The translations under genes were made by a program, and so were the position numbers. Positions 35 through 46,794 of a stretch of 64,000 nucleotides of DNA are shown here, piece by piece. This stretch comes from Henricia sp. BOLD:AAB3569 (Eukaryota > Echinodermata > Asteroidea > Spinulosida > Echinasteridae). Where the stretch lies: contig JBBELK010000369.1 in the NCBI GenBank assembly GCA_037783545.1, forward strand, positions 186,001 to 250,000. Reading direction: 5' to 3'. How positions within the stretch are numbered: the first letter of the stretch is position 1; the number at the start of each line of letters is the position of its first letter. The notes below the pieces were generated by a model. The model ran no database searches. It was not told the DNA's origin and saw nothing but the letters and a program-made list of their open reading frames with translations.

Positions 35-235
35 GAATCGATTCCACTTGATTCCGGCGTGGAATCGCCCAAGTTTAGTGACTATACATTGCCAGAACAC
101 GTTTACATGTCTTTCGGTGTCAAGAGGTTAGTACCTTCTTCCAATGTTCTCGCGCAGGATTCATTGGACCAGTTGCTCCAGTTTTTGCCTTCTATAAACT
201 TGACGGCAACTCGGATGCAGTAGGTAGTGTATGCT
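35..235. repeat. Interspersed repeat family K, fragment
   Basis: The stretch around 78-110 (gactatacattgccagaaca and the following cgtttacatgt) recurs near-identically around 35055-35085 and 63258-63290, so this is a fragment of a dispersed repeat. No coding signal was seen. The stretch from 235 to 660 holds nothing I recognise. Confidence 0.5.
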
Positions 236-666
236 AGCAGGCCACCCGCTGTGGGAAAATGCAGTTGCGTATTGCCGTCCTTGATGTCCGGCTCTTCCTG
301 CAGTAAACCAAAGGAAGTAAATCTACTGAAACGTTTTTAAAAATGGCAAATGGGGTGGGGGGTGATGTATTTTGCCAGTAGAAACAGCCACGCGTAAGTG
401 CCAAATAACCGGTATTTTGTCTCTACCGTACCGGTTGAAGGCACCCCATCGCTCAATGCCGGTGCACCCCATAGAAACACGCTCAGTGATCTAAGCCTGC
501 ATGGACAGTCAGCACAGAGATGGAAGTTCACTAAAAATATTCAAATTTTCTTTCTTTAACCACATCTTAAAAATATCCCTGCAGAATTCTAGCTATCATG
601 TGAAGCACACTTGTGACACTTTTGTAGAGCCCAATGTTGTGGCAATTATTGTTTTGTGCACAAAGT

Positions 667-1760: not shown

Positions 1761-2261
1761 GATATGGATCTAGGGTGTACATGTAAACCATGTTAATGTG
1801 TATCGCTACCTTTGTAAACAATGATGAACCTTCGAGATGATACTCCAGTTTGTAGATCAAGTAAATTTTTTGATACTTTTTCCAATCTCGTGGTATTTCC
1901 CAGCTGGCATGAAACTGCGAATGTGGTTTTGCCTTCACTACGACATTCCTTGGTGGATTTGGAACAGCTGCAATAAAACAGTACGCAGAGTGACATCATA
2001 TGTACACATTGTACAGGTACATATACTACATGTCAGGAAAAACATGTCCTAGTAACTTCAGTGAACTTTGTTATTTGCCAACAAATTTCAACCAAAATTT
2101 CAGATCATGTAAACAAGGCCTGACAAATTGTATTAAGCGATTTGCATCAGGTTTGACAGAGAGAGTAAAATTTAAAAGCCATACGAATAAAAAACTGCCA
2201 CTTTCAACTTGGCGTCCTCCAATGTCAAGAAATTATACCGTGTTCAGAAAAATGGATCTCG

Positions 2262-3152: not shown

Positions 3153-3325
3153 TGTCTATGTCAATACTAAAGCTCACGCTTTGCGAGTAAGCAGCTCCGA
3201 GTTTGTTAGTAGCGAGTACACGGAACGTGGCCATCGTGTGAACAGTGTCCTTCACCGTGCACATTCGTCCATCGCTACACTCACAGACGTCCTTCAGAGG
3301 GCAGGTATACCAACCAGAACTATCG
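3153..3325 (-). CDS. Receptor exon 4: second half of FN3 domain D1
   Basis: The acceptor tttctttctgacag precedes 3325 and the donor gtaagt follows 3153. The 173 nt exon enters in phase 2 and leaves in phase 1. It encodes SSGWYTCPLKDVCECSDG, then RMCTV, and ends with the FN3 F-G region FRVLATNKLGAAYSQSVSF. Four cysteines lie here, where vertebrate D1 domains usually have two. No downstream D2 exon is recognisable at 1-3100. Confidence 0.82.
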
Positions 3326-6300
3326 CTGTCAGAAAGAAAAACAGAAAAACAAGAAACATATCTAGAAATTGTGATCAAGACAGTCTATATATAAGGTCAC
3401 CCCCACAGATATCCATTAAAAGCTAGATCAGAAACGACTGTTATTTAATGGCACATCACCGTAACCGGTTTGGGTCGGTTTTGAACATGTGCACATGTAG
3501 CGTGTTTTGTGTTTGAACATAATACACCTATCAATTGTTTCCCCCACCTCTCTCCTCCCGGGCTGCCCCACCTAAGAGGTAGGGATTGTCACTTTTGCGT
3601 GACAAAATCCCCACCCCTGGGGCAAAATTTAGGTGACAAAATCCCCACCCTCGGGTGCAAAACGTGCACACATTGCTACTTATGCACAAAAATTTGTATT
3701 TCAGTGGGTCAAAATCCCCACCCTGGTGCACAAAAAAAGTGTCCAAACCCCCACCTAAGGGGTGTGGCAGCGCAGGGGGGAGAGGGGCGGGGGGGGATGG
3801 GAGAGGGAGAGGTGGGGGAAACATTTGATAGGTGCATAACATACATGTACACGCGCGATCTTCACAAGCAATGAGAAAGTGGCATGTGTGAGGTTTTATG
3901 TGTGATTCAATGGGAAAGTGCCCAAAACCATTCGTCAAATAATACAGATCTGGTTCATGAACTACATGTAGGCATGACTTTGCTGTACCAAAAATGACTT
4001 AACTTTTGATTCGCTTGACTGATTTTGATGCAATAAATACTATTTGTTTATCAGGATCCAGGAAAACCTTGATTCCGAGGTTGGCTCGTTCGACCTGGAA
4101 ATTTGTGTGTATAAGACACCATTATTATTTATAATTGAAACAAAATCTTACACGGAAGAATCCAAGTCATACTGCAGTGTGTAGCTTGTGTTGATGTTAG
4201 TCTCGATGCCTTGCTCCCATTTGCAAGTGACATCATAATGATTCGTACTGGAACAAGACAGATCCGTAGCACTGCTTGGGGGAACTGTGGTAGGTCAATA
4301 CAAAAATTAGTAATGTTAGTTGAGTTAAAGACTTTTCTAGCAAACTTGGGATGAGAGAACAATCATAAGAGCCTTATCGGGATTCAAACCCGAGACCTCT
4401 GAATCACCCAACAGATGCTATACCAGCTGAGCTATAAGGCACAGTAGTATACTTTCTCAGGTTTTCCCCAAGGCCTCCGACACACCGGACAGATGCTCCA
4501 CCAGCTGAGCTATGAGGCACAGTGGTATACTCCCCCAGGTCTTCCCTAAGACCTCCGACACACTGGGCAGATGCTTTACCAGCTGAGCTATGAGGCACAG
4601 TGGTATATACTCCTCAGGTTTTCCCAAGAACTCTGACACACCCAACAGATGCTCTACCAGCTGAGCTATGAGGCATAGTGGTATACTCCCGCAGGTTTAA
4701 TTCCCTAAAACCTGACACACTGGGAAGATGCTCTACCAGCTGAGCTATGTGGCACAGTGGTATACTCCTCAGGTTTTCCCAAGACCTCTGACACACCGGA
4801 CAGATGCTCCACTAGCTGAGCTACGAGGCAAAGTGGTATACTCCTCAGGTTTTCCCAAAACATCTGACACAACAGACAGATGCTCTACCAGCTGAGCTAT
4901 GAGGTAGAGTGGTATACTCCCTTAGGTTTGCCCTATATGAACCATGGGAGCGCAACTGGGCAAGGTAACCAGCACAATATCTGGTATGGTGCCCTCCCGA
5001 TTACCATTGAAATGAAACAACCACACCCTTCAAGCACATGTCATATTCATATGTACATAGAAAAACATTGGCAGTTTCTTTCAGGACTTTGGGAACAGGG
5101 TTAAAGGGGTAATGCAGCCCTCCCAATGGGAACGGAAGTATAGCTCAAGAAAATATTGAATTCCTGCTCATAACACTGGTACATTATGTACAGTATTGAA
5201 GAAAGAAAAAACAATCTCGGGCTTGACAAGATTTCACTGCATACGTATACGCTACTCACAATAAGTTAGGGATATTGTGGGGTGTACCCAGACATTTTAC
5301 TGAGGGTATGCATTCCGCTTGCAGGATTTTGTATATGATTAGACAATTGTATCTGCATGACAGACACACCTTGTCACAGGAATAAGTGACAACAGTCAGT
5401 TGAAGAAAAATAAAATTCAAAATTGACAACATATCAATATCCCTAACTTATTGTGATAGTGAGTAGTGTACATGTGTATCAATAGTCGTCCTTCCTCCAT
5501 GACATAATGCAGTGCAGCATGACCCAAAAATATAACTGTGACAAGGTAATACAAATACAGGCTAAAGTTTTTTGTTCAAGTGCTGCCAAGGCCATCAAAG
5601 GCAACCATGCTTTACAATGGGATAACAACAGAATTAGGCCGCCAGGTACATGTGCATGGACTGTACATGCATGCAGGCTAGAGTTGACACTGTGCGTGTT
5701 TCTAAATTATATTGGGACCCAGTAGAAACCAATCTTAAACGCTATTTCCAGGTCAGTAATGTACCGGTAGGGGCAAGAATTTCACCCAGCAATTTTTCAT
5801 TTCGAGGAAGGAAAATACCGGGGAATTTATCAGGACAGCGCAAATAGAAACATGCACCGTTCTCCTTACAGATTTTTTACAGATTCGTAGAATAAGAGTG
5901 TAACATATCTAAGGAAGGATGTTGGTAAACTAGCCTGACGAAATTTTAGCTACCGTATATATATACTTACATACGATGCATCAATGCTTCAGAAAACCTT
6001 GAAAATCTATATACTGTATGGATTTTGTGTGCAAGAGAATAGTACCGGTAATTTTTAAGAAAACCACCTTCGGTTGTCAATTTCCAGCATGAAATACCAT
6101 TTTGGACAGAAATAAATTCATGTGGTGTTTGTTACCATTGCTATCAACACTTTGCAATTTTGCTATCAACACCGTGCAATTTTGTTCCATACGTTTTTTC
6201 CATTGCCTGGTGCGCCCGCGTCCACTGTGCGTGTGTACAGTATTGTATGTGATGCGCGTGTCAAATGTATGACGCGAGCGCGCCCAGTAAACGCGACCGG

Positions 6301-9300
6301 CCCCGGCCCCTCCGACACAAACACATTTTTCTACAACTCACAAGTGACATGGCGGGCTTGTACTTTATGACGGACGATGAAATAAACTAAAAGGGTAAGC
6401 CTGAATAATTTGTAAACAAAAGTAGGACGACAAGGATCTACTTGGGCGTTATATAAAACAAATAATGAATGTTTTAATTCGTGCAATGGGAGGAATATTT
6501 TCATTCGGTGAAAGATAGAATGTGTTCCAATGGAACATTCCATCTTTCACCTCATGAAAATATTCCTCCCATTGCACTCATAAACATTCATTATTTGTAT
6601 ACCATCATATCTTTCCGAACTAGTCCAACGGCATCATTCAAATCGTGAATCCATGAGATCCAACAACAAACTCCTCCTAGCGAAAGTTTATTCCAAGAGA
6701 TCTTGGGGTGAAAGGTCCTTTGCCTCAGCAGCTTCATCTTTGTGGAACAAGTTACCAGAACACATCAAGCTATCGTCAAATCACTTGCAACTTTTAAAAC
6801 ATCACTTAAAACACATTTGATGAAATCTCATTAACTGACTGAACTCCATGATTGTGATATTAGATTTTTAATGTGTCTCGCTGCGCCATGAGCATCTTTT
6901 TTGATGGATACCGGCGCATTATAAATTTTCATTATTATTATTATTATTATTATACTATAGTAGGTTTCTGAACGTGCCCTGTAAATTAATTTTGATTCTG
7001 ACGTCCGTTGCTTTCGAAACAAACACCACCTACATGTAGGCCTACATGTACACGTACATGCTTAGGACTATTCTTGTATAATCATAATGGTTGACAGGAC
7101 CTGATGCACATGTATACATGTACCTAATGGAAAAAGCGGACTTCACTGAAAGGAAACCCGGTGCTTTTAATGGATATCCTCAATAATGTAGGAAGCCGAA
7201 CGTCACAACTTGTCTCGTGCCGTCTGGCTTTACAATTAAGTTGTAATTACCAGAGGGAGCTTGCTGCATTTCAAATCTGTCAACTGGCTACTTAGATGGG
7301 GATCGGATTAAACTGAGAAAAGGAGTCTCACTAGAAATTTAAGCTGGCGTAATTGATTTACTGGTACTGTAAGGACTAAAAAACAAGCTCAAGAGCTTAC
7401 AACTGGTGTAAAATGTGTATTGGAAGATTTAAAGATAGAGCACATGATTGATAAACTGTTAAAAATGACGTTATTTCCACCAGTGACTAAAATCGTATGT
7501 TGATAAAACTGCCTGGTAGAAATTTTAGCTACAATGTACATAGATGCAGTAATACTGCAGAAAACCTTGCATGGTTTTTGTGCATGAATGAATGGTAAAA
7601 AAGTTGTCTGCAGACAACTTTTTTTAAAAAGCACCGTCAGTTGGCAATTTTCCCAACAAAGATACCATTTTCGGGAAAAAAAAATCATGTGGTGTTTGTT
7701 ACTATTGCTATCAACACTTTTAGTCAGGTTTTTCTTGTCAACTCGTGAAGTAAAATTTACACTATGAGCAACTAACAATGGAAATTGGGCACACACCATT
7801 GTTATTAACAATGGAAATTGGGCACACACCATTGTTATTAACAATGGTGTGTGCCCAATGTCCATTGTTAGTTGCTCATAGTGACAGTATGACTGGTGTT
7901 GGAATCAGTTCTGTTTGTAAACCAGCCTCTTCCGTGTTTCAGGTGAATAGCGTCTGGCATGTCTGGTGTACTGATGTACGATACTTCCTTTCACATGCAT
8001 ATTCAGATAAAATTTGTGTTGCTATGTGGTGCACGCAGAAGACGTGAAGTACAGAATCAATACCGTGCTCACCGTGGAACAGAATGGCATAAAGCAACCA
8101 GACTGTTGATAGCTAGGCAATGGCGTGCACCACGTAGCAACAATAGCATAGTCTGTGACTTTCTAAACTGCACGTCCATTTGAAAGTGAAGAATTCGGGG
8201 CGTTAGCCATTATGCTAATTTATTTGGATATTATTGCCACAGCGCTTACGGTACAGTGTACATCAAAACTTGGGATGAGAAAAAAAACTTAAGGGCCTTA
8301 TCAAGATTCGAACCGAGACCTCTGACTCACCGGGCAGATGCTCTACCAGCTGAGCTACCCTTTGAGGCACAGTTGGTATATGCATCAGCGTTAACCGCGA
8401 TGATCCTGAGTGCCGCGTTTACATTCTGTAGTTGATCTCGAGCATGGTGCCAGAAGTTGCAGTCAAAGGTTATGCATATGTGTGCATGTACTGATCAATG
8501 TGTGCATGGGTTGTGCATGTACAGCGTACAAGGCCACTTGAATTTCACAGGCTTTTCCCCCTGCTACGGCTGTGGAGCGCATGCGGTAAAGATTAATTGC
8601 TTATCTAACGCAAACTGATCCCGAGCTCGAACCCTCCGCAAACGCGAGACCAAAATCTCGGGGCTGATCTGGGGGGCCAATTTGGTCCCGAGAGCATTTA
8701 CACTCGGTTTGTTCGGTGTTCAACCCCGAGCTCGGGATCAAGTGTACACAGGGTTTATCAGAAGACTGGGAAGTAAAATGATAAATGATTGAGACTTTGA
8801 GGTCCATTGTTATGGTAATGTTCCGAACACCGAAGTAGACATGTATTCAGTACAAATGTACAGGGAAACAGTACATGTACATAGCCTTTTGTAACTTGCA
8901 AAGGCAAGGCATTTGTGACATGCTCTGGAAAACGGTAGCACAAATCGCGCAGGCTAGGTCAAGTTTTTGCGACCATAAGAAGAAATTTGTGGCAAATCCA
9001 CGCTCTTATTAAAACAAAAAAACACAATGGAAATTTCTGGCGGTGCCCAGATACCTGGAATGGCCGTGTTTCGCCTGGAATTTCCTTTGTGTTTTTGTAT
9101 GTTAATGAGCATGGATCTGCCGCAGATTTCTACTTATGGTTGCAAAAACTCGACCTACATGTAGCCTACCCGGTACGCAACTTACATGTAAGCTACCTTT
9201 TTTCAGAGCGGGTGATACATGTGCTGTTCCAAAAGCGACATGTACATGTAGGCTAACTGAGAGACCTGTACATGCCACTGTGACACAAACTGAAAAGAGA

Positions 9301-12300
9301 TGATTTCTTTAAAGGTCAATATAATATATCACTCGCACGATGGAACATTTTAAAGATTCCTGGAATAAGGGCATACAAATGTTGGTAAACTTTTGGCACA
9401 GTTTGCTTTGTGCATTGGTTCATCAACTGTGTACATGTATGCTTGTATACTTGTACATGTAGGCCTATATTTTGGAATATTTGTATCCTTAAAACATTAT
9501 TTGTAAATTTCATAATCGATCAAATACTTGAATATATCTGGTACATCAGCCAATTAATTTCCAACCCCTTAAAGAACCTGTACAGTGAAATTTGTATAGT
9601 GGCCACCCTCGGGACCGTAAAAAACAGATTTAATATGATAAACAGGTGGCCCCCTTTATAAAGATTGCATTAGCATTACACACACACATGGCATTTGGGA
9701 CCAAAGACGGGTGGCCACTATAAACAGGTGGCCTTAATAGCAGGTTAATTTCAGTGTATGTATTTTTTGTTTCACCATATTTGGATGTGTATACTTTTCA
9801 ACTAAATATTACTGAACATTATACGTACATGTACATGAACCATACTAAATACCTTTGTTTACCTAGGATTTTTATAAGGCCTACAGAATTGGTACACATA
9901 GAGGTACATGTAGCTTGACAGCGATTTTCAAATTTGGCTCAAAAAAGAGACTAGTGCAGCCACAAGCGGCATGTGAAAAGAACAGTCTCATGTCAAAAAT
10001 GATTGAACTTTTCAATTACCCGACGTCACAAACAAACAGAGACATCACGCACGACTTGTCCTTTCAAAATTAAGTCCAATAATTAGCAGCTCACAGTAAT
10101 AAATCTTGGGGCTCGCCCACGCTTTCATTGGCTTGGTCACGACAAACAACTTTAATGAGTATATGCATCACAAAATGCAAGTCAGTTGGCAAACAGTATC
10201 GGATGCCTCCTATTCCTGTACATTGTACACTTCTACATGTGTACATATGTACAACGTGTCAAAAAAACCAAAAATATGTCCTATTTTTGATCTTAAATAA
10301 CTGTCAAATTCCAACAGATTTAACTCGCTCACTACGGCGCGCCGCTGACAGCGGCTCGAGAAATGTCTACTTCCGGACAGAAAGCCGCTGCCAGCGGCTC
10401 GCCTTGACACATAAATAAATGGTGGCCTTTAATTAATTACGTCACAGACCTTGAAAATATTCCGTAGTGAAAGAGTTAAACCAAAATTTCTGAAAATTTG
10501 TCCAAAGCTGTGTCCGTATTGGCACGTTTTACCGAGACGACGGTAAAATGAAAAATTGCTACTGCTGTCCGCATTTGGACTTTTTTTACACAAATTTCCC
10601 GAGATTGTGGGGGAGCATGCGCAGTGTCCCTTTGCAGTATGACCTTCACATCCCGGACGTACTCTTCCAGAGTGCTTTTACCGACTCGATGTGTCCGCAT
10701 TGGACTTATCATCTCGAGAACAATTACATGTACCTGGTAAATTTTCCTGGGCAGCAGTTGGCCAGGAAAAGTAACCGCTGGACTCGGGAAAAGTTACTAA
10801 GAGGAAAACGTCCTAGGCTGTCTGCACTGGATTAAAAATGGGAAAGTACCCATCGTCTCGGTAAGTTTTTTTCAAAAAAAGTCCAATGCGGACAGGCCTC
10901 AAGAGGGTAAGATTTCAAAGCCATACAAAAAAAGTCAATTTCAGAATTCGCCACTTTTGACTTGGTCTCCTCCAATGTCGATACAATACTGGAGACGGTG
11001 GCGGAAAGTGCGTGCTGCAGCCGAAAGCTTCTGAAGAAATGCAGGGTCACCCCTAATTGTCATTGCAAGCCATCTCGATCGTTTTGCGCAACTCATCAGG
11101 GGGTGCAAAGGGACCTCAGACATAGATGATCTCCTTGACAACAGAGGACGCCAAGTGAAAAGTGGCAAATTCTCAAATTTAGAGGTTTTTTTTCATATGG
11201 CTTTTAAATCTCACCCTCTTGGTCAAAGCAGATGCAAATCGCTCAATAAAATTTGTCAGTCTTGTTTACTTGATCTGAAATTTTTGTTTAAATCCGTTGG
11301 CAAATGACAAGGTTATTTAAGATCGAAAGTACATAGAACATGTTTGTACAAAGGTATGCTCATAATACGGTGGTGATCACCTGCTATTGCCAAATTGAAA
11401 TAAACACAAATTGATGTATAATTGGTTTCAGTTCATTGGTTAAAGAAGCTTGTCTAGATCACAATTTCTTATCACCAACTTCCCCCCTCCAATTTTTGTC
11501 CATGGGTGTTGAGATTTTGATACCATATCATTTGTAATTTTTTTCTCATTACCATTCTGAAATTGTCTGCTCTTAATCTGTATATTTTCAAGGATATCGT
11601 CAAAAAACCGCCGATGTTTTGTAAAGAGCGTGATCCAATTCCGTCCCTCACGTGTGAGGGACGGAAATCAAGAGACAAATGCCTTTCCTTAGTCAACAAC
11701 AAATGAAAACTAAAGTGAACCTGTTTGTTTACCTTCTACTGATGTTAATACACACACCCAGTTTATCACATGTTGAAATTAACTTTACAGTTTAATGCAG
11801 AGGTTGTTTTTATTCGCGAGGGACAGATAATCAATAAAATTGACAAAAAAGGAATTTTTTTACATGCATTTTCAACTATTTCTTTAAAATGTGATGGCAC
11901 AGTGTGCCCAGTCAAATTTATTCTGTTAATTTTTGTAATATGATTGTAAAATATGGACTTTTATTTTGATTAATTTAAGAAATTTTGAAGTCTTCATCCA
12001 GTATTTACCGTACCAGTTTCGAATCACGCTCTAAACTAATTTATCCGCTCCATAAAGTAGTGCAGTGATTACACCAACCTTTTTGCTTCCACGTCCAATT
12101 TCTTGTTTTCTTCCCATGGATAGTATTTTGGGGAGGTATTTTATATGATCGTTAGTCTACAATGAAATCCATTTTGTGAAAAAATCTCAACAAGCTCCTT
12201 TAAATATATTTGCCACACACGAGGTACAAAAAATGTACCATACAACGTACTGGTACATACAGCTCCAGTAAACTCCCCTGGGGCTGTAGGGGTGGAGTAT

Positions 12301-15300
12301 TGAATTTTTCAAAGCACCTCCCCCACTTCCACTTTCAATTTCGATTTTTTACAATTTTGGGAAGAACTAAAGTGCAGTGTTGGGTGAAAATCCCAGGTAC
12401 CGTGTACATGTACATGTACATGTACGGTATGACTTCTTGTTGAGAAGTAGCACAATTTAGTAAACAAGTTTTTGTTGCAAGAGCAATGCATTCGCAATGG
12501 ATGGTGACGGGTGTACGGCTAACTTAAAGGATTTGTGAAGTGAAAATTAACAACAAGCTGGTTTTATACACAAATCAAAGGATCAAACTGCTGCCTACGA
12601 AGAGGCACACTAAAATTTGTTTTTATTTCAGAAAGAAGTGACCTTTTCTTTACTTCAAAAATGTTTATGATGGGTGAGGGCGCTGTTTAATGCTAGTCAT
12701 GGAGGGAACCCACAGTTGAAAAACAAAAAAACATTACATTTCAAACAGTAACAGTACCCAACTGATCAATTTTTGGCTCAAACAAACTTGTCAGGATTGT
12801 TGGGAATGACATACTAAACAAACTCAGTAAACTGATACAGTTCATGATATCAAGAAGCCACTGAAAATGAAACCAACTTTTGTACACAAGTCTATGGAGA
12901 ATTCCTCTGTTGTCCTGATATAACATCACGGCTTTGCTCATGAATATGGAAATGCTCATTAGCATTTTTATCAAAAAAATAGAAAACTTGCAATTACACC
13001 AAAACGCAACTATCAAATTCTCTGAAATTGATTGAGATGAGTTAAACACATCCTGTACTATAGTTTTATGTAATATAAATCCTATTTCATACGTCCTTTA
13101 TTACTGGCAAGCATCACACATCTTTATAGTACACTGTACTGTGATTGCCTTTTTGCGATAAACACGTCTTGTTTTAAGGAGTTTGGAGATTTTTTTTGCA
13201 TGTTTTTTATTTCACTTTGTGGGTATATTTTTGCCCGGACAATCAAGAGTTTCGGACGGGCGGTAAAAGGCCCAAATTAAACTCCACAATATCCAAAAAG
13301 GCAAGTTGAAGCCGGGTAGGTGCTACATGTACATGTACATTGAAGTGTACATGTAAATGTAAAAGGTGAATTGAAAAAGGTCTGATTTGCCTTTTTCAAG
13401 TCACCATTTAGGCAGGGTTGAACTCCGCAATTGTCAAGGTTGCTTGTAGTGTAAACGCTACCCGAATACAGATTTGGGTAATTCCCAAAATTAGGGGTCC
13501 AAAATGTTTAGTGTCCCAGTTACATGTACGTACGACACTCTCCGCTTCAAAAATCACCACTTATGACCCCAAACTCTCAGTAATGGACTGGGGCCTGTGA
13601 TTATAGGGGGCAGCATCATTTTCTTCAATATTTAGTTTTCTGATTCCTGAAAAATATTAAAAACAAGCTTAAAATTTGTTCCATGGTATTGAATAGGAGT
13701 TTGGTGTCCCGGGTTACCTACGTCAATGAAAATTGGTTGTAGAATAAGTATTAACCTTGGTGCTATATCTACAGTACACACAAACATTAAATTTGAGTGG
13801 CATTTGTTCAAATAAAAATAATTTCAATCATTAAAAACACCTGGAAATCTTAAAAAGCATGTCACACTTTTGGACCCCTAATTTTGGGAATTACCCATTT
13901 GGCAATTTGAGGCATCCTTGGGGCAGTGACCACCATGTGGTAGATTTAATTGACCAATCTGGCACCAGTTCTGCAACACTTAACAGCCCATGCATGCTCT
14001 GCTGTCACAATTAGTGGGGAGGATAGGCGATTTAAACATGGCAAATGTTTAGATTTGCGGTCGCAATAAAAATGCCAGGGGCCGTTTTCAAAGAGCGCTA
14101 AGACACGTCTTAGGAAGAGTCACTCTTCTTATCTTAGGAAGTTGGTATAGGAATTACATTGTAGGACGCATTGAACTCGTCTTAACTTTTGTGAAATCGA
14201 TTCCTGGTCTGTTTTAAGGGTAAACTCGGCGTTATATGGACTGACCCAATAATTACATTACATGTACATGTACTTCATACAACTTTCATGCATGCTCCAA
14301 AGGCAGTAACCCAACTGCACTATTGTCCAGGGTATGCATTCAATTTTCAGTGATCCCAGCAGAGCCAGGAATCCGTCACCTGTATGTAAATTTCCTTCAG
14401 GGTCGCTCCTTTCAAACCAGAGTGATCAATGCCAAGTTTTTCAATTTTATTTCTTGTTTTCTTTTCACTTTAGCTTTCATTTGCGTAGCGTTCCTGCACT
14501 TATACAGCAGGAAAAAAATGTAGGCCAAACACATGTAGTACACTTCTATAAATAATTTGTGGGGGTGGCAGTTGTAAAATTTATTTCTGTTTAGGCCAAA
14601 AAAAAGAGCTATGTTTAGCGTTAGCGTGCGCGTCACTTTAAACCCTGTGCGTCAAATTTTTCTTCTTCTTTTTCCCCCGATTAAAAACATGCCTATTGAC
14701 TGTCAACTTGTCTTTACTGCATGGAATCCACTGTGAAATATATTGTGTGGAGATTGTGCATGTACTGTATGTCTACGGTTTCACATACATTTCTAGAATA
14801 CATACATTGTACTGTATCTGTGACAAAGTAATATGAAATACGGTGCCAGGAAATTACGAAACAGTATGGAAACTTGTGAATTTTGATGGAAAATCATTTT
14901 TACAAAAACAATTGATGTTGCCCAACAATTGATGATGATTACACCAACCTTTTTGCTTCCACATCCAAATTGGAATATTGCAAATTTCCTGTTGGGTCTT
15001 TTTATAAATTAGAGGTCCAAAAGTGTGACATTTAGTGTCCCCTGTTACACCTGATAGGTGTTATTTTTCGTACAAAAATCATTAAAATGGCTTTTAAATT
15101 TTGTATGAATTGTACTTCATGTACTCACTCTTTGAGATGTAAAGTATTTAAAGAATGTGTCCTGAATTTACAAAAACAAGATGTAAAATGTAACGGGGAC
15201 ACCAACATTGGACCCCTAATTTATAGAAAGACCCCGTTTTCCTCCTATGGATAGTATTTTGGGGAGGTATTTTATATGATTGTTGGATTAGAACGAAATC

Positions 15301-18300
15301 AATTTTCTGGAAAAAATGGGACAAGTCTACTTGTGTGTACTGTACAAACCTCCAACAAATACTTCTGTGCTGTTCCCACTACCAGGAGATGACTGTCCCG
15401 CTACACAAGCGTAGAGTCCACTGTTCGCAAACACCGCATTCTCAACTATCAACAGCGATGTCTTGTCATCAAGCGCACTGTACCACTTGTTGGGTAGCGT
15501 CATGCCATCACGGCTCCATCCGATGTCCTCGCCATGGATTGGGTTGGACTGTGCTGCCGTGCAAGAAAGGTTGAAGGTTGTGCCGTCTAGAAATGTGGGC
15601 CGGACTGGGAAGATGTCAACTGTAAAACACAAGAAATGGGATTGGAAGACCGAACAAATGGCATTATCTTCATTTATGATAAAACCAACCTGTGTAAATT
15701 GGTGTTCCCAATGGACTTTCAAAAAAGAAAAATACAATTTCTTTTTTTAAAGGCAAATATGATTATTGGCCAAAAGTTAAGATCATTAAGTGTTCATTTT
15801 CAGTGGTTCAAAATTTGTATAGATACGGCTGTTACAAGCCACAAGTTAAAAAATGTAACCCTCTTGTTGACAGATATTTCACAGGGGTGGATCCAGGGGG
15901 AGCGTGGAGGGCGCACATCCCCACCCCCTTTTCCTAAAAAAAACCAAACAATTACATGTACATGTACTGTATCTGTTAGTTTATTAATTATCAATAACTT
16001 TCGCAACTGTTGGGGTACCGGTATCTCCCTCACATGACATAACACTTTTGCCTGCTTAAAGTGGTTAAATATTGCCTTAGATCGCACCACAGAGCACCTA
16101 GAATCCAACATTTTTCAGGGCCCTTAAGCGGGCTTCATGCTATGCGCTCGGTATTTGATTGTTTTCACCATTTCATGCTTAAACATTTCTCCCACCCTCC
16201 CCTTCCCACCCCCCCTTCCCACCCCCCCTTCCCACCCCCCCCCTTCCCACCCCCCCCCCCTCCCACCCCCCCCCTCCCACCCCCCCCCCCCCCCCTTTCG
16301 AAAATCCTGAATCCGCCTCCGTTTCATGTTATTTTAAAACACGACTGTGATCAAAGTCTCAGCAAATTGCGAAACAGGACGTACATACATGTATGTATAC
16401 CGGTACATACATGTACGTGTGCAAGTGTACCCTATGTAACTGTACACATCTGCAACAGGAAATCATACAAGTAATCTGTGTCATTGCCGTTGCACTTTCC
16501 TACTAAACATTGTGCAGGATAATTGCGTGTTGCCACAAAAGTTCATGACAGGAGGGAATCTCCCCGAGTACTTCTTGCCACATGCCATGAGGAAGTTATT
16601 AATTTCACAATCCCGATAAATTATTTTTAACACACTTTTCCTAGACACACAGTAAGGGATTTTGGTTACTGGCACCTCATCAGTAGGGGGTGGGGTAGGG
16701 GGTTGAGACTGGTAGACTAAAAACTGCTTGACTACTGTACATGTACTCGGGTGCTCCGCAAACGACACAGTTCAACAGAACTTTCAACCTTTGTCCTGTT
16801 GCACTTCCATTATTGCATGTAGGACAAATTTACACAAGCCCTACGCATTCAATTTATTTGCCAAATTTCTATCCCTAATTTATTCACAATGGCATACATG
16901 TACAACCGGCACACGTGTTCTGTACGATCAAAATAATGTGGTCCAGTTTTTATTTTATTTTTTTCAAATGACTGTTTTTATCAGATTCCTGTGACAAGGT
17001 GCTTACGGAACATGTATGTCATGCAGATACAATTGTCTAATCGTATACTACAAAATCGTTCAAGCGGAATGCATACATGTACCCTCAATAAAATATCTGC
17101 ATACACCCCACAATATCCCTGTCTTATTGTGAGTAGTGTATCATGATTATTTATAAGAGCCAGGGTTTCACTATCCTGAGATCTCATGGAATTTCCACTC
17201 TGCTAAGTGCCATTACAATTCCCTGAGGAAATACACGCAAATCTGTGAAGTTACATGTAGGCGGCTATTGCAGAGAATGCACACGAGTCATTTTGATGTA
17301 ATTTAATCAATTTTGTCATGTTATGCTGAAGAGAAACAATTTCTATGCTTTCCAAAAATTTGATTGAGTTTTTGTTCTTCTTGACTACCCCTTCCTACTG
17401 AAATTTCCGGCGACGTTTTTATTTACTCCGCAGTTGTTCAAATTAATAACGGGGATTTAAAAACGGAATTCCCTGTAGGCTTTAAATAGCAGCCAATCAC
17501 CAACGTGGATACGGCAAGCACAACTGAGTATTACACTGTACTGTGTAAACTGCTTGCGTGTATTTGAATGCCCGCAATGTACTACCAAGCGTCCTGATTG
17601 GGCGACAAAATTTCCGTCGCCGTTTCCACAGCGAAATGGGGCCAGTTTCAACAGGGCCTCGGAATGCACGAGTAGGGGAGTGCGTTAAAGGGGCACTTGA
17701 CTGTTGCAAAAGGATGGAGTTTCACATGAGTGCTCGTTTCTGGATTTCCAGCGACAGTGTTAACAAAAAAATATCAAGCAGTTTGCTGCAGAAACAAGGC
17801 TGTTGGACAATGGGTTTATCAATGTTTGCCACCTGAGACACTAATTGGAGGGAAGCACGCAACCCACAGAAATACATTGTAAATAATATAGAGCAAGTTC
17901 TATTCACGACTAGAGTGAACCACTGGTCGAACGTCATCCTGGCAACACGCATGCGCATTAATGTGTAAGTGCGAACGCCTTTGGTTAGTCAACTGGTTCC
18001 ATGCATAACACTGCATCAACTCAATGCCTAATGGGTACCAACATGACCAATGACCAGCGCGACCGTGCCCTGTGGGCTGGTTCCAAATGGTCAACCAGAC
18101 ACGACTAACCATCGTTGACTAGACTGCATTAAGTTAGAAATAGCCCAACTGTAGCTAACTATAGTCGTCAATCGAACTTGTTTGTGATGTTTGTGCGTCT
18201 CAGCGTTTACTATAAGGACAAGTAAAAAGCCTTAAACAAGGCTGTGTTAGCTTTTAAAAATTACATGCAAACAAAAAACGTGGGACGGATTAGTCTGTCT

Positions 18301-18724
18301 TTGCGAACAATTTAATTTTCAATTCTCTTTCAATCAGGGATGTGTTTAGTGGCTGTCCAAAGTTGTCAACATTTTTACAGTTCTACATGTATAGAGAGTA
18401 CAGTAGTATTTTTCAAGACCCCTCCCTCCCCCCGAAATACTACTTATAAAAAATTGTTGTCACTACCGTCAAATGTCAACATTTTACAGTGCATGTAAAG
18501 TCCTACGCCCCAATACCCGCACCAAATGCACCACACAGACCAATATCTTTTTGAATCTGTGCAACCATTATAAAGAAATGCGTACAGTGTACGATACCTG
18601 TGTCTTGCGCCTGGACTTTATGCAGCCCTTGAGTGCCCACTGTCAGGTAGAGAACAATAGCAAAGTGCAGTGTGCACCTGAAGCAGTGTGGGGCAGGGTA
18701 GGGTGCTCCTTGCTCATGTACCAT
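3153..18724 (-). CDS. Class I cytokine receptor-like protein, Ig plus cytokine-binding FN3 domain (3' end outside window)
   Basis: I joined four exons: 18724-18598, 15619-15350, 4284-4152 and 3325-3153. Their junction phases are 1, 1 and 2, and the last exon exits in phase 1. They give 234 residues and the gene runs off the left edge. Residues 1-42 are a signal peptide. Residues 43-132 form one Ig domain (LSC, IGW, SGLYAC). From about 133 to 234 runs a fibronectin-III domain with the class I receptor D1 pattern: PPSSATDLSC, then VTCKW, then TSYTLQY, two further cysteine positions (WYTC and RMCTV), then FRVLATNKLGAAYS. In gp130, IL-6R and CNTFR an Ig domain precedes this same module, which binds four-helix cytokines at the cell surface. 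D2, the WSXWS box, the membrane segment and any JAK-binding motifs would lie outside the window. The fold assignment is strong; the exact subfamily is inference. Introns of about 3.0, 11.1 and 0.8 kb are filled with MITEs. Confidence 0.83.
3528..3842 (+). repeat. G/C-rich dispersed repeat family N, copy 2
   Basis: This fuller copy of the 1363-1608 element has inverted ends (TATCAATTGTTTCCCCCACC and GGTGGGGGAAACATTTGATA). It lies in the intron between receptor exons 3 and 4. Confidence 0.75.
4152..4284 (-). CDS. Receptor exon 3: first half of FN3 domain D1
   Basis: The acceptor acctaccacag precedes 4284 and the donor gtaaga follows 4152. The 133 nt exon enters in phase 1 and leaves in phase 2. 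It reads PPSSATDLSCSSTNHYDVTC, then KWEQGIETNINTSYTLQYD. The C-x9-C-x-W spacing (LSC to VTCKW) is the hallmark of the class I cytokine-receptor N-terminal FN3 domain. An internal phase-2 intron in D1 also fits what I recall of vertebrate receptor genes. Confidence 0.85.
4366..4925 (-). repeat. Tandem array of a tRNA-derived half-SINE, about 7 units of roughly 80 bp
   Basis: On the minus strand the A-box-like word TAGCTCAGCTGGTAGAGCAT recurs with variation about every 75-85 bp (near 4424, 4505, 4585, 4665, 4739, 4818 and 4898). Each unit also carries a variant of GTATACCACTGTGCCTCAT. Only the unit at 4366-4440 has the B box (GGTTTGAATCC). Repeated SSAG-type open frames here are artefacts of the array. 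Confidence 0.85.
5244..5470. mobile_element. MITE-like element family O
   Basis: Terminal inverted repeats are seen: ACTCACAATAAGTTAGGGAT near 5253 and ATCCCTAACTTATTGTGA near 5438. A diverged reverse-complement partial copy lies at about 16983-17142. The stretch from 5470 to 6060 has no recognisable gene. Confidence 0.7.
6070..6190. repeat. Dispersed repeat family Q, fragment
   Basis: It shares phrases (accaccttcggttgtcaatt, catgtggtgtttgttac, tgctatcaacact) with sequence at 7640-7725, 30850-30910 and 59390-59420. Confidence 0.5.
6460..6600. repeat. Long inverted repeat (fold-back)
   Basis: The two arms, about 60 nt each, are near-perfect complements. The left arm includes gggaggaatattttcat and the right arm atgaaaatattcctccc, centred on tgttccaatggaaca. 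It directly precedes a LINE 3' end. Confidence 0.8.
6622..6952 (+). pseudogene. 3' end of a non-LTR retrotransposon (LINE ORF2 C-terminus)
   Basis: The frame reads LLLAKVYSKRSWGERSFASA, then ASSLWNKLPEHIK, and stops at about 6830. R-SFA-AAP-LWN-LP-xI is the usual C-terminal signature of CR1/L2/Jockey-type reverse-transcriptase proteins. A GCGC-ATTATAAATTTTC 3' UTR end and an (ATT)n tail at 6930-6950 follow. The element is 5' truncated and inactive. Confidence 0.8.
7380..7760. repeat. Dispersed repeat family Q
   Basis: Shared segments include attgtctgcagacaa-type palindromes, catgtggtgtttgttac and agttgacaagaaaaac. They recur at 30690-31030, 59293-59560 and 62118-62230. Two copies carry a CTGCAG-centred palindrome flanked by homopolymers. 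Confidence 0.55.
7761..7881. repeat. Palindromic element family I, copy 1 with an internal duplication
   Basis: Ends actatgagcaactaacaatg and cattgttagttgctcatagt are complementary. The unit caatggaaattgggcacaca occurs twice in tandem before the inverted copy. A simpler copy lies at 44532-44613. Confidence 0.8.
8024..8150. repeat. Inverted-repeat element, copy 1
   Basis: Ends gttgctatgtggtgcacgc and gcgtgcaccacgtagcaac are complementary. A related copy lies at 29170-29310. Confidence 0.7.
8270..8365 (-). repeat. tRNA-derived SINE (type 2), copy
   Basis: On the minus strand TAGCTCAGCTGGTAGAGCAT is followed by a B-box-like GGTTCGAATCT and AAGGCCCTTAAG. The region from 8370 to 10500 shows no gene and only short repeats. 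Confidence 0.7.
10509..10900. mobile_element. MITE family F, copy 1
   Basis: It is bounded by GTGTCCGTATTGG and CCAATGCGGACAGGC. Internal blocks such as ggcagcagttggccaggaaaa and catcgtctcggtaa are shared with 28159-28557 and 42192-42571. Confidence 0.8.
11455..12203 (+). mobile_element. MITE family A, copy 3, split by family B
   Basis: Family A sequence (gtgttgagattttgatacca to ccgatgttttgtaaa) is interrupted at 11626 and resumes at 12032 (taaactaatttatccg) through to caagctcctttaaa. Confidence 0.85.
11626..12031 (+). mobile_element. MITE family B, copy 1, nested in family A
   Basis: It starts GAGCGTGATCCAATTCCGTC and ends GAATCACGCTC. TAAA flanks it on both sides (11622-11625 and 12032-12035), and only one TAAA is present in uninterrupted family A. 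The left end carries an internal palindrome, CCGTCCCTCACGTGTGAGGG. Confidence 0.88.
13476..13896. mobile_element. MITE family D
   Basis: Terminal inverted repeats are GGGTAATTCCCAAAATTAGG and its complement, flanked by ATTT on both sides (13472-13475 and 13897-13900). The inner part of the terminal repeat, AATTAGGGGTCCAAAA, is shared with family C. Confidence 0.85.
14935..15320 (+). mobile_element. MITE family A, 5'-truncated copy 4, split by family C
   Basis: Sequence gattacaccaacctttttgc to aaatttcctgtt is interrupted at 14994 and resumes at about 15236 (gttttcctcctatggatagt). The copy ends about 30 bp from the Ig exon. Confidence 0.8.
14994..15234 (+). mobile_element. MITE family C, copy 1, nested in family A
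   Basis: Ends are GGGTCTTTTTATAAATTAG and CTAATTTATAGAAAGACCC. The flanks are TGTT and CGTT, fitting a slightly diverged 4 bp duplication. Other copies lie at 51817-52062 and 61088-61332. Confidence 0.85.
15350..15619 (-). CDS. Receptor exon 2: Ig domain
   Basis: The acceptor cttgtgttttacag precedes 15619 and the donor gtttgt follows 15350. The 270 nt exon is symmetrical (phase 1 in, phase 1 out), as is usual for Ig modules. It encodes the B-strand Cys in TTFNLSC, the core Trp in DIGWSRDG, and the F-strand motif NSGLYACVAG. N-glycosylation sequons include NLS and NST. The exit phase joins exactly to exon 3, giving FVGVPPSSATDLSC. Confidence 0.87.
15620..18597. other. Putative first intron of the receptor gene
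   Basis: No exon was recognised. The stretch holds a C-rich tract (16190-16300), a partial family O copy (16983-17142), ACATGTAC words and AT-rich sequence. Confidence 0.5.
16190..16300 (+). repeat. C-rich simple repeat
   Basis: Units of CCCACCCCCCCTTCC run into poly-C. The minus strand is therefore a long run of G tracts that could form quadruplexes. The sequence that follows (tttcgaaaatcctgaatccg) resembles a repeat end. Confidence 0.9.
18598..18724 (-). CDS. Receptor exon 1: signal peptide
   Basis: The acceptor tttgtcttttcag lies just upstream at 18734, so a 5' UTR exon probably exists further right. The ATG at 18724 has A at -3 and G at +4. The exon encodes 42 residues, including the hydrophobic run FAIVLYLTVGTQG and then LHKVQAQDT, before a donor (gtatcg) in phase 1. 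That is exactly the phase the Ig exon needs. The link to the Ig exon is by position, phase and signal-peptide character only. The N-terminal stretch before the hydrophobic core is long for a signal peptide. Confidence 0.62.
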
Positions 18725-33608: not shown

Positions 33609-33967
33609 TTAACATGGAGACACTTGCAAGTTGTCTGAATCCCATTCGTCTTCTCCATTGTGCTGTGGTTGTTGCTCTTGCTGTTCTGGTTGCTCCTGCG
33701 GCTGCTGTTCCTGTTGCTGTTCCTGCTGCTGCTGTTCTTGCTGTTGTTCTGGGTAAGCACCGTCATCATTCTCGTCCTCGTCCTTGGGCCGTAGTGTCTC
33801 GTCCAGGTCGTCATTACTATGATAACAACTGTCCTCTTCTTGGTTTTCACGCATTGGGTCATTGTCCAACATTGGGTCATTGTCAGGCTCGGCTGGTGGC
33901 TGCCCTTCTTCCACATGCAGGTCTTGCTGTTTATTGTCGGGGACCTCTTTGACCGAACCACTGGCAT
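33609..33967 (-). CDS. syd1: syd1 exon 5: acidic, Gln/Glu-rich C-terminus and stop
   Basis: The acceptor ctctataaacag precedes 33967, entering in phase 1. The exon encodes an acidic segment (NDPMLDNDPM repeats, RPKDEDENDDG), then about 30 residues built from EQQ/EQQQ units, then EDEWDSDNLQVSPC and TAA at 33611-33609. The plus strand shows an antisense Ala/Val-rich frame that is an artefact. Confidence 0.9.
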
Positions 33968-36900
33968 CTGTTTATAGAGTCCATGACAGATACACATTTT
34001 TGACAAGATTTATTTTCACGGTAATTGACCTTTATCACGGTGCGTCCATCTTTGTCTTGTTTCCCATAGTACGTGTCGGGTACGATCAGTGCGTATGCGC
34101 TACTGCGCGATAGCGCGTGTAATGCCCAGTTGAGAATCACTGTCCGCACAGCGCGTTCTCTTGGTCGCGCAACGCCTGTGCCATTGTGATGCATACAATG
34201 AACAATTTCAAGATGGGACCAAACTATTTTTCTGCAAGCCTCGCTTTGGTTACCATACGTTCATTTTAATAGGAGAAAAGGGAAGATGGCCGCAACATGA
34301 TAATTTACACATTATCAGTTATCCTACGAGCGCGAGTGCAATACGGCATAATTTAGTGTGTCTACATTCCATATAACGGTACCATGAGGTCAAAGGACGA
34401 GTGGTACACGGGATGCAGACTCACTACATTATGCTGTATTTCACAAGCATGAGTGGGATAACGAATGTATCTTCAAGCAAACTTAACGCACACGCGAGGG
34501 CGAGAAGCGCTACATTGCAGAGAGTCATCGGCATAACAAGCCGCATCGGATGCACACGCATCACGTTTGAATTCACCGTCATGTGATATGCAGCTCTGAA
34601 TTATTTTGTGATGGGGACGCAGTGCATTTGGAATACCAGGGCGCATTACGCAGAGTGCGACATAAAATAGAAAGGCGTACATACATGTAGTGCAATGTCA
34701 CACTGTTGTATCCACCAATCAAAAGCACGGATTCAGGTTTGCTTGAAGATAAAAGGCAATAGTTCTGTTCAGACTTTTGGAAAAAACCAACATGACACAA
34801 AGAAATCCAGACAGAGATCCTCCGGTACCTCTATGGATGACTAAGCATAATGGATCAAAGTGCGACCATGTAAGAAATAGCCTTGAACCAGATAACGAAA
34901 GCCGAGGCGACCGCCACAGAGCGAGATTAGCTACACTGACAGGCCATCCACAGCCGTCAAGTTCAAGTTTAAACACAGTGTGTACAAATGAATAGTGGAC
35001 AATGGATGTGTTTACACGTCAACTGTATAAAAGACAGCGGCAAAGTGCCCCTGTGACTATACATTGCCAGAACACATTTACACGTCCTCCGGCATCAAGT
35101 GGTTAAAATACACACATCTGTAAGAACTTACATTTTTTTAGTTATATGCATGCAACTGGGCCTACTCACTCGGTTTGCCCGGCCACACTTCCACCATTGT
35201 CTGCAGCACCTCAATGTGTTTTTCATAGTCTGCGTCTTTGCCCGTGGCCACTTCCCGTGTGAGCACTGTGTTACTGCCGTATGACGCAGCACTCATCAGC
35301 ACAGGGCCAAAGCAGACAGCGATGTTGTACGCACTCATCTTGTTGGTCTCGGAGTGGACCATGATCAACTTGAGATGGTCAAGGATGTACGCCCCTGTAG
35401 TCTGCAGATGGAGGAAAAAACAGACGAGCATTATTTTTTGTTTAGACAGAAGACACACTGTTCTCGCACTTGTTCTCGTACAATTACACTCTTCTTATAT
35501 CCGAACGTGGGATTTGAACCCGAGACCTCCGACTCACCGGGCAGACACTCCACCAGCTGAGCTAGTAGTGTGATACACTCCCTCAGGTTTTCCCTATGAA
35601 TCAAACTTTTTATATCTCAGTGAAAACCTAAGGGATTATACCACTGTACCTCAGTTGGTAGAGCATCTGCCTGGCGAGTCAGAGGTCTAGGGTTCTAATC
35701 CCGATAAGGCCCTTACGATTGTTCTCTCATCCCAAGTTTGGTTGTTTCATTTTAATGGTGATTAGCCACCATAGCAGATATTGCGTTATTACTCTTGAGC
35801 ACGGTTGTTTGTCAAGTTGCCGCCTGTTCAGTAAATTGTTCGTTTTTTTTTACCCGAGTACGACCTGAGGGCGGCTTAAGCTGACCTTTGCATAAGCCAT
35901 AGGAAACTTTTCCAAGCCCCCAGAGCGTGATCCAGTTCCGTCCCTCACGTGAGGGACAGAAATCAAGAGACAAATTCCTTTCCTTAGTCAACACAACAAA
36001 TGAAAACTAAAGTAAAACTGTTCGTTTACCTGCTACAGATGTTAATACACACACCCAGTTTATCACCTGTTGAAATTGACTTTATAGTTTTATGCAGAGG
36101 TTGTTTTTATGCGTGAGGGACGGAAAATCAATAAAATTGACAAAAACTACAATTTGTTCATGCATTTCAACTATTTCTTAAAAATGTGATAACACAGTGT
36201 GCCCAGTCAAAATTATTATATTAATTCTTGTAATATGATTGTAAAATATGGACATTTCTTTACTGTTTGAGGTAGTACATGTATTTTGATTAATTTAAGA
36301 AATTTTGAAATTTCCATTAAGTGTTCACCAGTTTTGGATCACGCTCCCCAATAAGCAGCGGCATGTACATCTACATGTACGTATTCCAAAAATTATAGCA
36401 CATGCTCATGTAGAGGTACTGTACAACAGACAAGAGGAAGGTTTAGACGCACCTAAAGCACGAATGTAAATACGAAAATAATGCTTTCAGCACAGGTCAT
36501 GTCATGGATCTTAGAACTCAAATTTGAATCTTGGTTTTTTGGTTTTCTTCCGTTCTAAGATCTCTTCAGAGTAATGACCAAGTGTTCAAAACATTTCAGG
36601 TTCACGTTCTACATGCATCTAAACCTCCCTACTATTCCTCCAAACCCCCGTTTGCCTTACTTTATTTGCTGGTGGCAGTGACTCAATCATTTTGACCAGG
36701 AGCTCCCCATTCTGGGCAGCATCACCGGGTGGATTGCCGAATGTGTCCATGAAACGCTGACACATCTTGGACGTGAATAACGGCTCAGGAAGCTCTCGCA
36801 AGTAGTCCTTCAAGACACCTGCAAAAATGCCACCAAAAGAAATAAAGTCAATCGCATTTCTCCATTTATCTCATTGAAGAGGAGGGGAGGAAAGGTAAAA

Positions 36901-46567: not shown

Positions 46568-46794
46568 TTTGAAGAGCAAAACAAGGACTCCTTCTGAAGA
46601 AAAATGACTGCATTTTGGGATAAAATGAGGACGGCTGGGCCACGGTAAAACCTAACGTATTTTTTTCTCTCACTGTCTCGGAGTTAATTTTAGCCAATAA
46701 AATTACACAAGAAGCTCAATTCTGTAAATGATTGTTGTACGCATGCGCAATGTGAACTTAGACTCTATGCAGCCGTTTATTAGGATTTACGTGG

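Follow-up and report, generated by a model that had tools for sequence, protein, structure and literature searches.

A predicted gp130-type class I cytokine receptor gene with an N-terminal Ig domain, and related receptor loci, in the sea star Henricia sp.

The DNA analysed here is a stretch of 64,000 nucleotides from the sea star Henricia sp. BOLD:AAB3569, namely positions 186001-250000 of contig JBBELK010000369.1 (C369) in an assembly of 740.7 Mb and 2104 contigs. It is called the window in the following, and 60 kb to its left were added to the analysis. The minus strand of the window carries the first six coding exons of a predicted gene, which is continued in phase by five more exons to the left, so that 11 exons with GT-AG ends and matching phases form one open chain of 747 amino acids (Table 1). 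The chain encodes a signal peptide, an immunoglobulin (Ig) domain, the two fibronectin type III (FN3) domains D1 and D2 of a cytokine homology module (CHM), one further FN3 domain, a transmembrane helix and a tail. The initial annotation of this DNA had described the signal peptide, the Ig domain and the two D1 exons as four minus-strand exons with fitting phases, and all of them were found in place, ending in phases 1, 1, 2 and 1. It had also expected D2 and the WSXWS motif to the left of the window, an assumption that was dropped because both D2 exons, including the motif WSNWS, lie inside it. The DNA further left contains the transmembrane helix and a Box1-like segment, LLKPVPNIS, both of which had been sought there.

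WSNWS is the sole strict WSxWS in the six frames of the window, and the looser pattern [WF]SxWS occurs twice in the window plus the 60 kb to the left, the other occurrence being situated amid stop codons. When GT and AG sites on this strand are scored with a simple frequency-based weight matrix, the six donors in the window rank between the 84th and 97th percentile of all GT, and the five acceptors between the 85th and 100th percentile of all AG. The exons for the third FN3 domain, the transmembrane helix and the tail all lie in the 5.6 kb after D2 and have good splice sites; about 0.9 kb past the stop codon there is a possible poly(A) signal. For the signal peptide, eight candidates at five places pass the same loose filter in the 17.4 kb upstream of the Ig exon; the chosen exon is among these eight, ranks fourth by hydropathy, is nearest to the Ig exon and shows, 9 bases ahead of its ATG, a strong acceptor-like site.

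By each defining feature clearly tested, the gene is predicted to encode a non-vertebrate class I cytokine receptor. The D1 domain shows the cysteine pattern C-x9-C-x-W-x29-C-x13-C at residues 143-199, counted by hand, as the initial annotation had read it in outline; the class I signature is CX(9-10)CXWX(26-32)CX(10-15)C (PMC1963337). WSNWS is situated in D2, and a single strongly hydrophobic stretch (mean 3.28 over 19 amino acids, residues 450-468) provides the one transmembrane helix of class I receptors. Both D1 and D2 are FN3 domains of the class I kind according to their Pfam families and PDB matches. D1 scored above the Pfam cut-off for LIFR_D4 (6.4e-8) and EpoR_lig-bind (1.4e-7) and reached just 0.095 with plain fn3, which led us to reject an ordinary adhesion-type FN3 for this domain, an outcome that the initial annotation had named as fatal to its proposal. 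D2 is above the cut-off for fn3 and for the interferon-receptor family Interfer-bind, and the third FN3 domain for fn3 (1.9e-8). In addition to the class I pattern, and in comparison to gp130, D1 and D2 contain two extra cysteines each (window 3153..3325 and 135..297), which suggests extra disulphides.

Searches against PDB sequences point to the same receptor class, in agreement with the class I receptor with N-terminal Ig initially proposed, and place it closest to gp130 and CRLF1. The Ig-D1-D2 part matched CRLF1 (4.9e-15), gp130 (1.4e-14), IL-12R beta 2 (1.6e-11), IL-11R alpha (1.7e-11), CNTFR (3.5e-8) and LIFR (9e-8); among the best 60 of the 91 sequences found at E up to 1, titin, ROBO2, contactin and other adhesion proteins stood lower. 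The CHM alone matched gp130 at 3.6e-12 and CRLF1 at 2.4e-8, and its 50 PDB sequences at 0.01 were almost all class I chains, with one titin. With the full ectodomain, gp130 reached 3.4e-21, IL-12R beta 2 6.7e-17 and CRLF1 3.3e-15, the gp130 match being colinear through Ig, D1 and D2 and reaching into the third FN3 domain. One shuffled copy of Ig-D1-D2 gave no PDB match at E up to 1, and one reversed copy of the sequence gave no Pfam family at 0.01. The likeness to gp130 or IL-6R alpha, which had been suggested as a pair, is retained for gp130 because the protein has a transmembrane helix and a long tail; the IL-6R alpha half was given up, and D1 alone reached 21.6 bits with the IL6Ra-bind domain, below the cut-off of 24.3.

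A second copy of the gene exists on contig C329, where all 11 exons were found with 94.3-100% DNA identity and AG/GT at 10/10 introns. It probably represents the other haplotype, with a recent duplicate as the alternative. Elsewhere in the assembly, contigs C24 and C103 each carry a long FN3 array, and by score many units of the two arrays pair off as equal, a sign that the assembly may contain both haplotypes. Over the whole coding sequence the two receptor copies show 39 differences, 21 synonymous (Sd) and 18 nonsynonymous (Nd), corresponding to a synonymous rate (dS) of 0.0417, a nonsynonymous rate (dN) of 0.0105 and a dN/dS of about 0.25. The values are 0.0463 and 0.0061 for dS and dN in the CHM (six and three differences) and 0.0576 and 0.0189 in the transmembrane and tail part. 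Signal peptide and Ig domain show no differences, yet this is not informative, because the intron between them is also 98.5% identical. The copies differ in length in the tail only, by nine residues and in frame.

We consider it highly probable that the six coding exons in the window form the 5' part of an 11-exon gene, and that this gene encodes an invertebrate single-pass receptor of class I and of the gp130 type, with signal peptide, Ig domain, D1-D2 with WSNWS, FN3 domain, transmembrane helix, Box1-like segment and tail, and with ligand gripping, chain pairing, JAK and STAT as its likely mode of action. In analogy to gp130, a four-helix cytokine would be gripped at the D1-D2 elbow, while the Ig domain would provide a second ligand contact, and the ligand would draw two chains together. 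A JAK bound to the juxtamembrane segment might then phosphorylate tail tyrosines, those in YVRL, YTKL and YTRL and others, which in phosphorylated form could dock a STAT. The tail also contains the sequence LDSTDSGF, identical in the second copy, which resembles a phosphodegron; phosphodegrons of such kind shorten the life of some cytokine receptors.

Several observations weigh against this reading. The exon chain is predicted from genomic sequence alone, and it has to bridge an intron of 11 kb between the Ig exon and the first D1 exon (D1a). When searched alone, the Ig exon best matched DSCAM, CEA and ROBO2, not gp130, and the 55 PDB sequences that it matched with an E of 0.1 or less included no cytokine receptor except the M-CSF receptor, a kinase. 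Because of these adhesion-type matches, the kinship with cytokine-receptor Igs rests on other evidence: the Ig is the next in-phase exon upstream of D1, the linker VG-V-PP between them aligns with VG-L-PP of CRLF1 and SG-L-PP of gp130, and of the three other receptor loci two (R3 and R4, see below) likewise have an Ig exon upstream of D1 in the same orientation. The bit-score gain from adding the Ig to the query was discarded as a proof of kinship: it amounted to +21.5 for CRLF1 and +9.0 for gp130 (1i1r), but also to +11.1 for IL-12R beta 2 (8xrp), where the aligned stretch starts after the Ig. Furthermore, LLKPVPNIS is a loose match to Box1 by eye; Box2 was not seen, and no Pfam family matched the tail at 0.1. 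The tail of gp130 contains YxxQ sites for STAT3. Here, none of the eight tail tyrosines lies in YxxQ and three lie in YxxL; signalling through STAT3 as in gp130 is therefore not predicted. A STAT_bind search of the genome gave no matches, which is not evidence of absence, because the control was silent and a like search with LIFR_D4 also found nothing, though this gene matches that family when spliced. Finally, the introns of the two copies are 87.2-99.1% identical (seven of ten compared, one over 70% of its length only), and several are as alike as exons; the case for coding constraint therefore rests on the dN/dS counts.

CRLF1 is a soluble protein made of Ig-D1-D2 without a transmembrane helix, and it is the best PDB match of just that part of the Henricia protein, the VG-x-PP linker being common to both. 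The gene might accordingly encode an alpha-type receptor, secreted or short (CRLF1-, EBI3- or IL-6R-alpha-like), that passes a bound cytokine on to another chain. The donor of exon 6 is rather weak (2.9 bits, 84th percentile), and read-through would meet a stop codon at 103-105; moreover, of the likewise Ig-bearing GHRl of amphioxus only the extracellular part is known (PMC9010856). The in-phase FN3, transmembrane and tail exons, which are absent from CRLF1 and kept in the second copy, speak against such a product, and as the main form of the receptor it was dropped; we regard it as improbable. A still smaller chance is given to the idea that the receptor gene has lost its function and survives as a pseudogene or relic. 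One of the related loci has an in-frame stop codon, but the window gene and its second copy are open throughout, their dN/dS is about 0.25, and their length differences are in frame only. The least credible explanation is an Ig-FN3 adhesion or guidance protein that merely resembles a cytokine receptor. Ig and FN3 domains are common in animals, and adhesion proteins dominate the matches of the Ig alone and also appear, at lower rank, among those of Ig-D1-D2; against this stand D1, which falls into class I D1 families instead of plain fn3, the joint presence of the cysteine pattern and WSNWS, and the colinearity with gp130.

The receptor of the window is apparently not the only one of its kind. 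A search of the own genome with the CHM gave 17 exon-level matches at E up to 1, four belonging to this gene and four to the C329 copy. On the basis of these sequences there are at least four related receptor loci in the genome, namely this gene and the predicted loci R2, R3 and R4 (Table 1). The joined CHM exon pieces of R2 matched gp130 (2.4e-12) and EPOR (2.5e-11) in PDB, and the joined Ig and CHM exon pieces of R3 matched gp130 (2.9e-17); R3 was matched as exon pieces, not as an assembled gene, since its D1a-D1b junction shows no clean frame by eye. R4 is recognised from its exons and their similarity to the window gene (E 0.001, with 44% over 43 residues), and WSXWS was not found within the 10 kb examined there. 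Among the Ig domains, that of R3 is above the Pfam cut-off for Lep_receptor_Ig (3.4e-7, 30.5 bits vs 28.8) and for Ig_3, that of R4 is below it (Ig_3, 5.2e-5), and at R2 the C-terminal half alone was seen (V-set 0.0036, below cut-off). The in-frame stop codon at R2 precedes this half Ig (L035:9894-9896, C105) and could indicate a decayed gene, a missed intron or an assembly fault. The single-exon frames of R2-R4 seldom reach the length that Pfam needs: among seven scanned frames outside the Ig, one is above the cut-off (fn3 3.6e-7, R2), one is just short of it (fn3, 24.0 bits vs 25) and five are without family. In this gene and in R2-R4, the border at which the D2 exon starts is of phase 1 and precedes the first codon of the xNxP motif by five bases. 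At R2, at least two FN3 repeats follow the CHM by eye. In the Ig-D1a intron of the window gene, just upstream of D1a, lies a seven-copy tandem array of 78-base tRNA-like units (window 4389..4933), one unit of which passes the Rfam tRNA model (window 4369..4441). The same kind of array was seen in translations between Ig and D1a of R4 (L037:8271-8798); the two arrays may reflect a shared duplication or a favoured insertion site.

Table 1. Coding exons of the receptor gene, its second copy, related loci and the adjoining gene (positions refer to the window unless a contig is given)
Feature	Location	Strand	Remarks
Exon 1, coding part: signal peptide, 42 codons	18598..18724	minus	ends phase 1; weakest-supported exon; identical in second copy
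Exon 2: Ig domain	15350..15619	minus	phase 1 to 1; Pfam Ig_3 1.6e-8 and ig 4.3e-8, both above cut-off; splice sites; identical in second copy
Exon 3: D1 first half, C-x9-C-x-W	4152..4284	minus	ends phase 2; second copy 97.7% identical
Exon 4: D1 second half, four Cys, FRVLATNKLG	3153..3325	minus	ends phase 1; second copy 98.8% over 172/173 bases
Exon 5: D2 first half (VPNPPRNV...)	1810..1967	minus	ends phase 0; second copy 98.1%
Exon 6: D2 second half with WSNWS	135..297	minus	ends phase 1; identical in second copy
WSNWS motif	166..180	minus	sole strict WSxWS in window
One FN3 domain, three exons	C369:185537-185622, 184720-184837, 183585-183686		in phase
Transmembrane helix and LLKPVPNIS exon	C369:182839-182978		in phase; outside window
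Tail exon, ends in TAG	C369:180517-181290		275-aa tail
Second copy	C329:5.524-5.528 Mb		11/11 exons
R2	C105:635-640 kb	minus	D1 exons with C-x9-C-x-W; WSDWS
R3	C105:677-686 kb	plus	D1 exons with C-x9-C-x-W; WSEWS; includes match at C105:682 kb
R4	C329:4.221-4.226 Mb	minus	D1 exons with C-x9-C-x-W
SYD-1/SYDE orthologue	35162..46651	minus	PDZ, C2_SYDE and RhoGAP exons

Compared with known systems, the Henricia receptor has the same domain order as vertebrate gp130 (IL6ST): signal peptide, Ig, D1, D2 with WSXWS, FN3, transmembrane helix and long tail. With one FN3 domain between D2 and the membrane, where gp130 has three (PMC10526877), and without YxxQ, it is, judged from the predicted protein, not IL6ST itself. 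The initial annotation had supposed that such a receptor system may be undescribed, which does not hold, since papers already describe invertebrate class I receptors that are gp130-like or carry an Ig (PMC1963337, PMC13203501, PMC9010856). A receptor of gp130 topology, with an exon structure said to resemble that of gp130, was reported for Ciona as one gene without synteny to vertebrate receptors, in contrast to at least four loci here (PMC1963337; likened by description, not sequence). IL6R-type receptors are mentioned from sea urchin, acorn worm, Ciona and molluscs, and IL6R and gp130 are stated there to have 'normally' signal peptide, Ig, IL6R domain, FN3, transmembrane helix and tail, a likeness that is again one of description, not sequence; the same 2026 survey places gp130 in vertebrates only and first in fish (PMC13203501). 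GHRl of amphioxus is a further non-vertebrate class I receptor with N-terminal Ig; it is described as an ectodomain only and linked to OXCT1, whereas transmembrane helix and tail are joined and SYDE adjoins here (PMC9010856). Class I receptors are thought to have descended from invertebrate gp130-like ones (PMC7274943), and an IL-6-like molecule of a sea star has been referred to (PMC9465101). Among the open-access papers that our searches listed, we saw none describing several Ig-CHM receptors as a family within an invertebrate, nor the linkage described below. Domeless and CRLF3 are invertebrate class I receptors as well, but are not known to have a comparable N-terminal Ig. For CLF-3, the D1 cysteine signature is stated to be lacking (PMC1963337), whereas it is present here.

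The neighbourhood of the receptor gene was followed over 284 kb of C369. Directly upstream and on the same strand lies an orthologue of SYD-1/SYDE, whose last exon may correspond to a further frame, acidic and rich in Gln, at 33609..33971. The PDZ domain of this orthologue is described as present in lower organisms and absent from vertebrate SYDE proteins (PMC8918327), which agrees with the invertebrate host assumed initially. Further right, PNKP (PNK3P 5.2e-26), CLPP (CLP_protease 3.3e-7), calreticulin (3.5e-21) and a TPR gene were identified, the latter with 65 amino acids that match STIP1 (1.4e-28) and SGTA (5.5e-22), so that either name is possible. Two more genes to the right are presumably DHCR24-like and LRRC40-like, judged by their likeness to the human sequences; an exon tested from each was without Pfam family, and that of the DHCR24-like gene also without PDB match. 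Human SYDE2, DHCR24 and LRRC40 are located on 1p22-32, and SYDE1, CLPP and CALR on 19p13, together with SGTA if the TPR gene is SGTA; PNKP, on 19q13, does not fit this pattern. Human JAK1, IL12RB2 and IL23R are found at 1p31.3, IL12RB1 at 19p13.1 and TYK2 at 19p13.2 (PMC9774035), JAK3 at 19p13.1 and JAK2 at 9p24 (PMC10632324), and CRLF1 at 19p13.11 (PMC8780587). For the Ciona and fly receptors, no synteny was found (PMC1963337). The shared linkage with human 1p22-32/19p13 is a lead, not a result, because it is based on naming genes along 284 kb of the contig. Among the other features of C369, palindromic MITE-like (miniature inverted-repeat transposable element) repeats occur at window 7773..7884, 44535..44613 and about 6480..6570, and one family among them has copies 37 kb apart at 96% identity. 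To the left of the receptor, three similar open frames (C369:150803-151522, 158454-159179 and 169292-169981; 240, 242 and 230 amino acids) scored as coding; at least two have a C-terminal hydrophobic stretch, and the one tested has no Pfam family.

This kind of receptor is already known; less expected are the several loci in one genome, the single membrane-proximal FN3 domain, and neighbours whose human counterparts are mostly on 1p22-32 and 19p13, where JAK and receptor genes are found too. It is conceivable, at somewhat less than an even chance, that Henricia has its own invertebrate family of at least four gp130-type Ig-CHM receptors and that the window gene lies on the unduplicated counterpart of human 1p22-32/19p13, the regions in which JAK1, TYK2, JAK3, IL12RB1, IL12RB2, IL23R and CRLF1 are situated as well. 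If this is true, the vertebrate clusters would have their direct pro-orthologue in the window receptor, Ig-CHM receptors would be older than vertebrates in that linkage group, and receptor diversity would not have had to wait for the vertebrate genome duplications.

The origin of the IL-6 receptor family has so far been argued from few invertebrate genes, namely from one gp130-like gene of Ciona without synteny (PMC1963337) and from a survey with gp130 first in fish (PMC13203501). The gp130-type receptor layout of vertebrate immune signalling is, by the present predictions, also found outside vertebrates and in several forms. With a complete Ig-bearing receptor that has gp130 as best match, three further loci and a neighbourhood comparable with human 1p/19p13, the order in which the Ig-CHM layout, the receptor expansion and the genome duplication arose becomes testable, and the receptor may serve as a concrete bait toward its invertebrate ligand.

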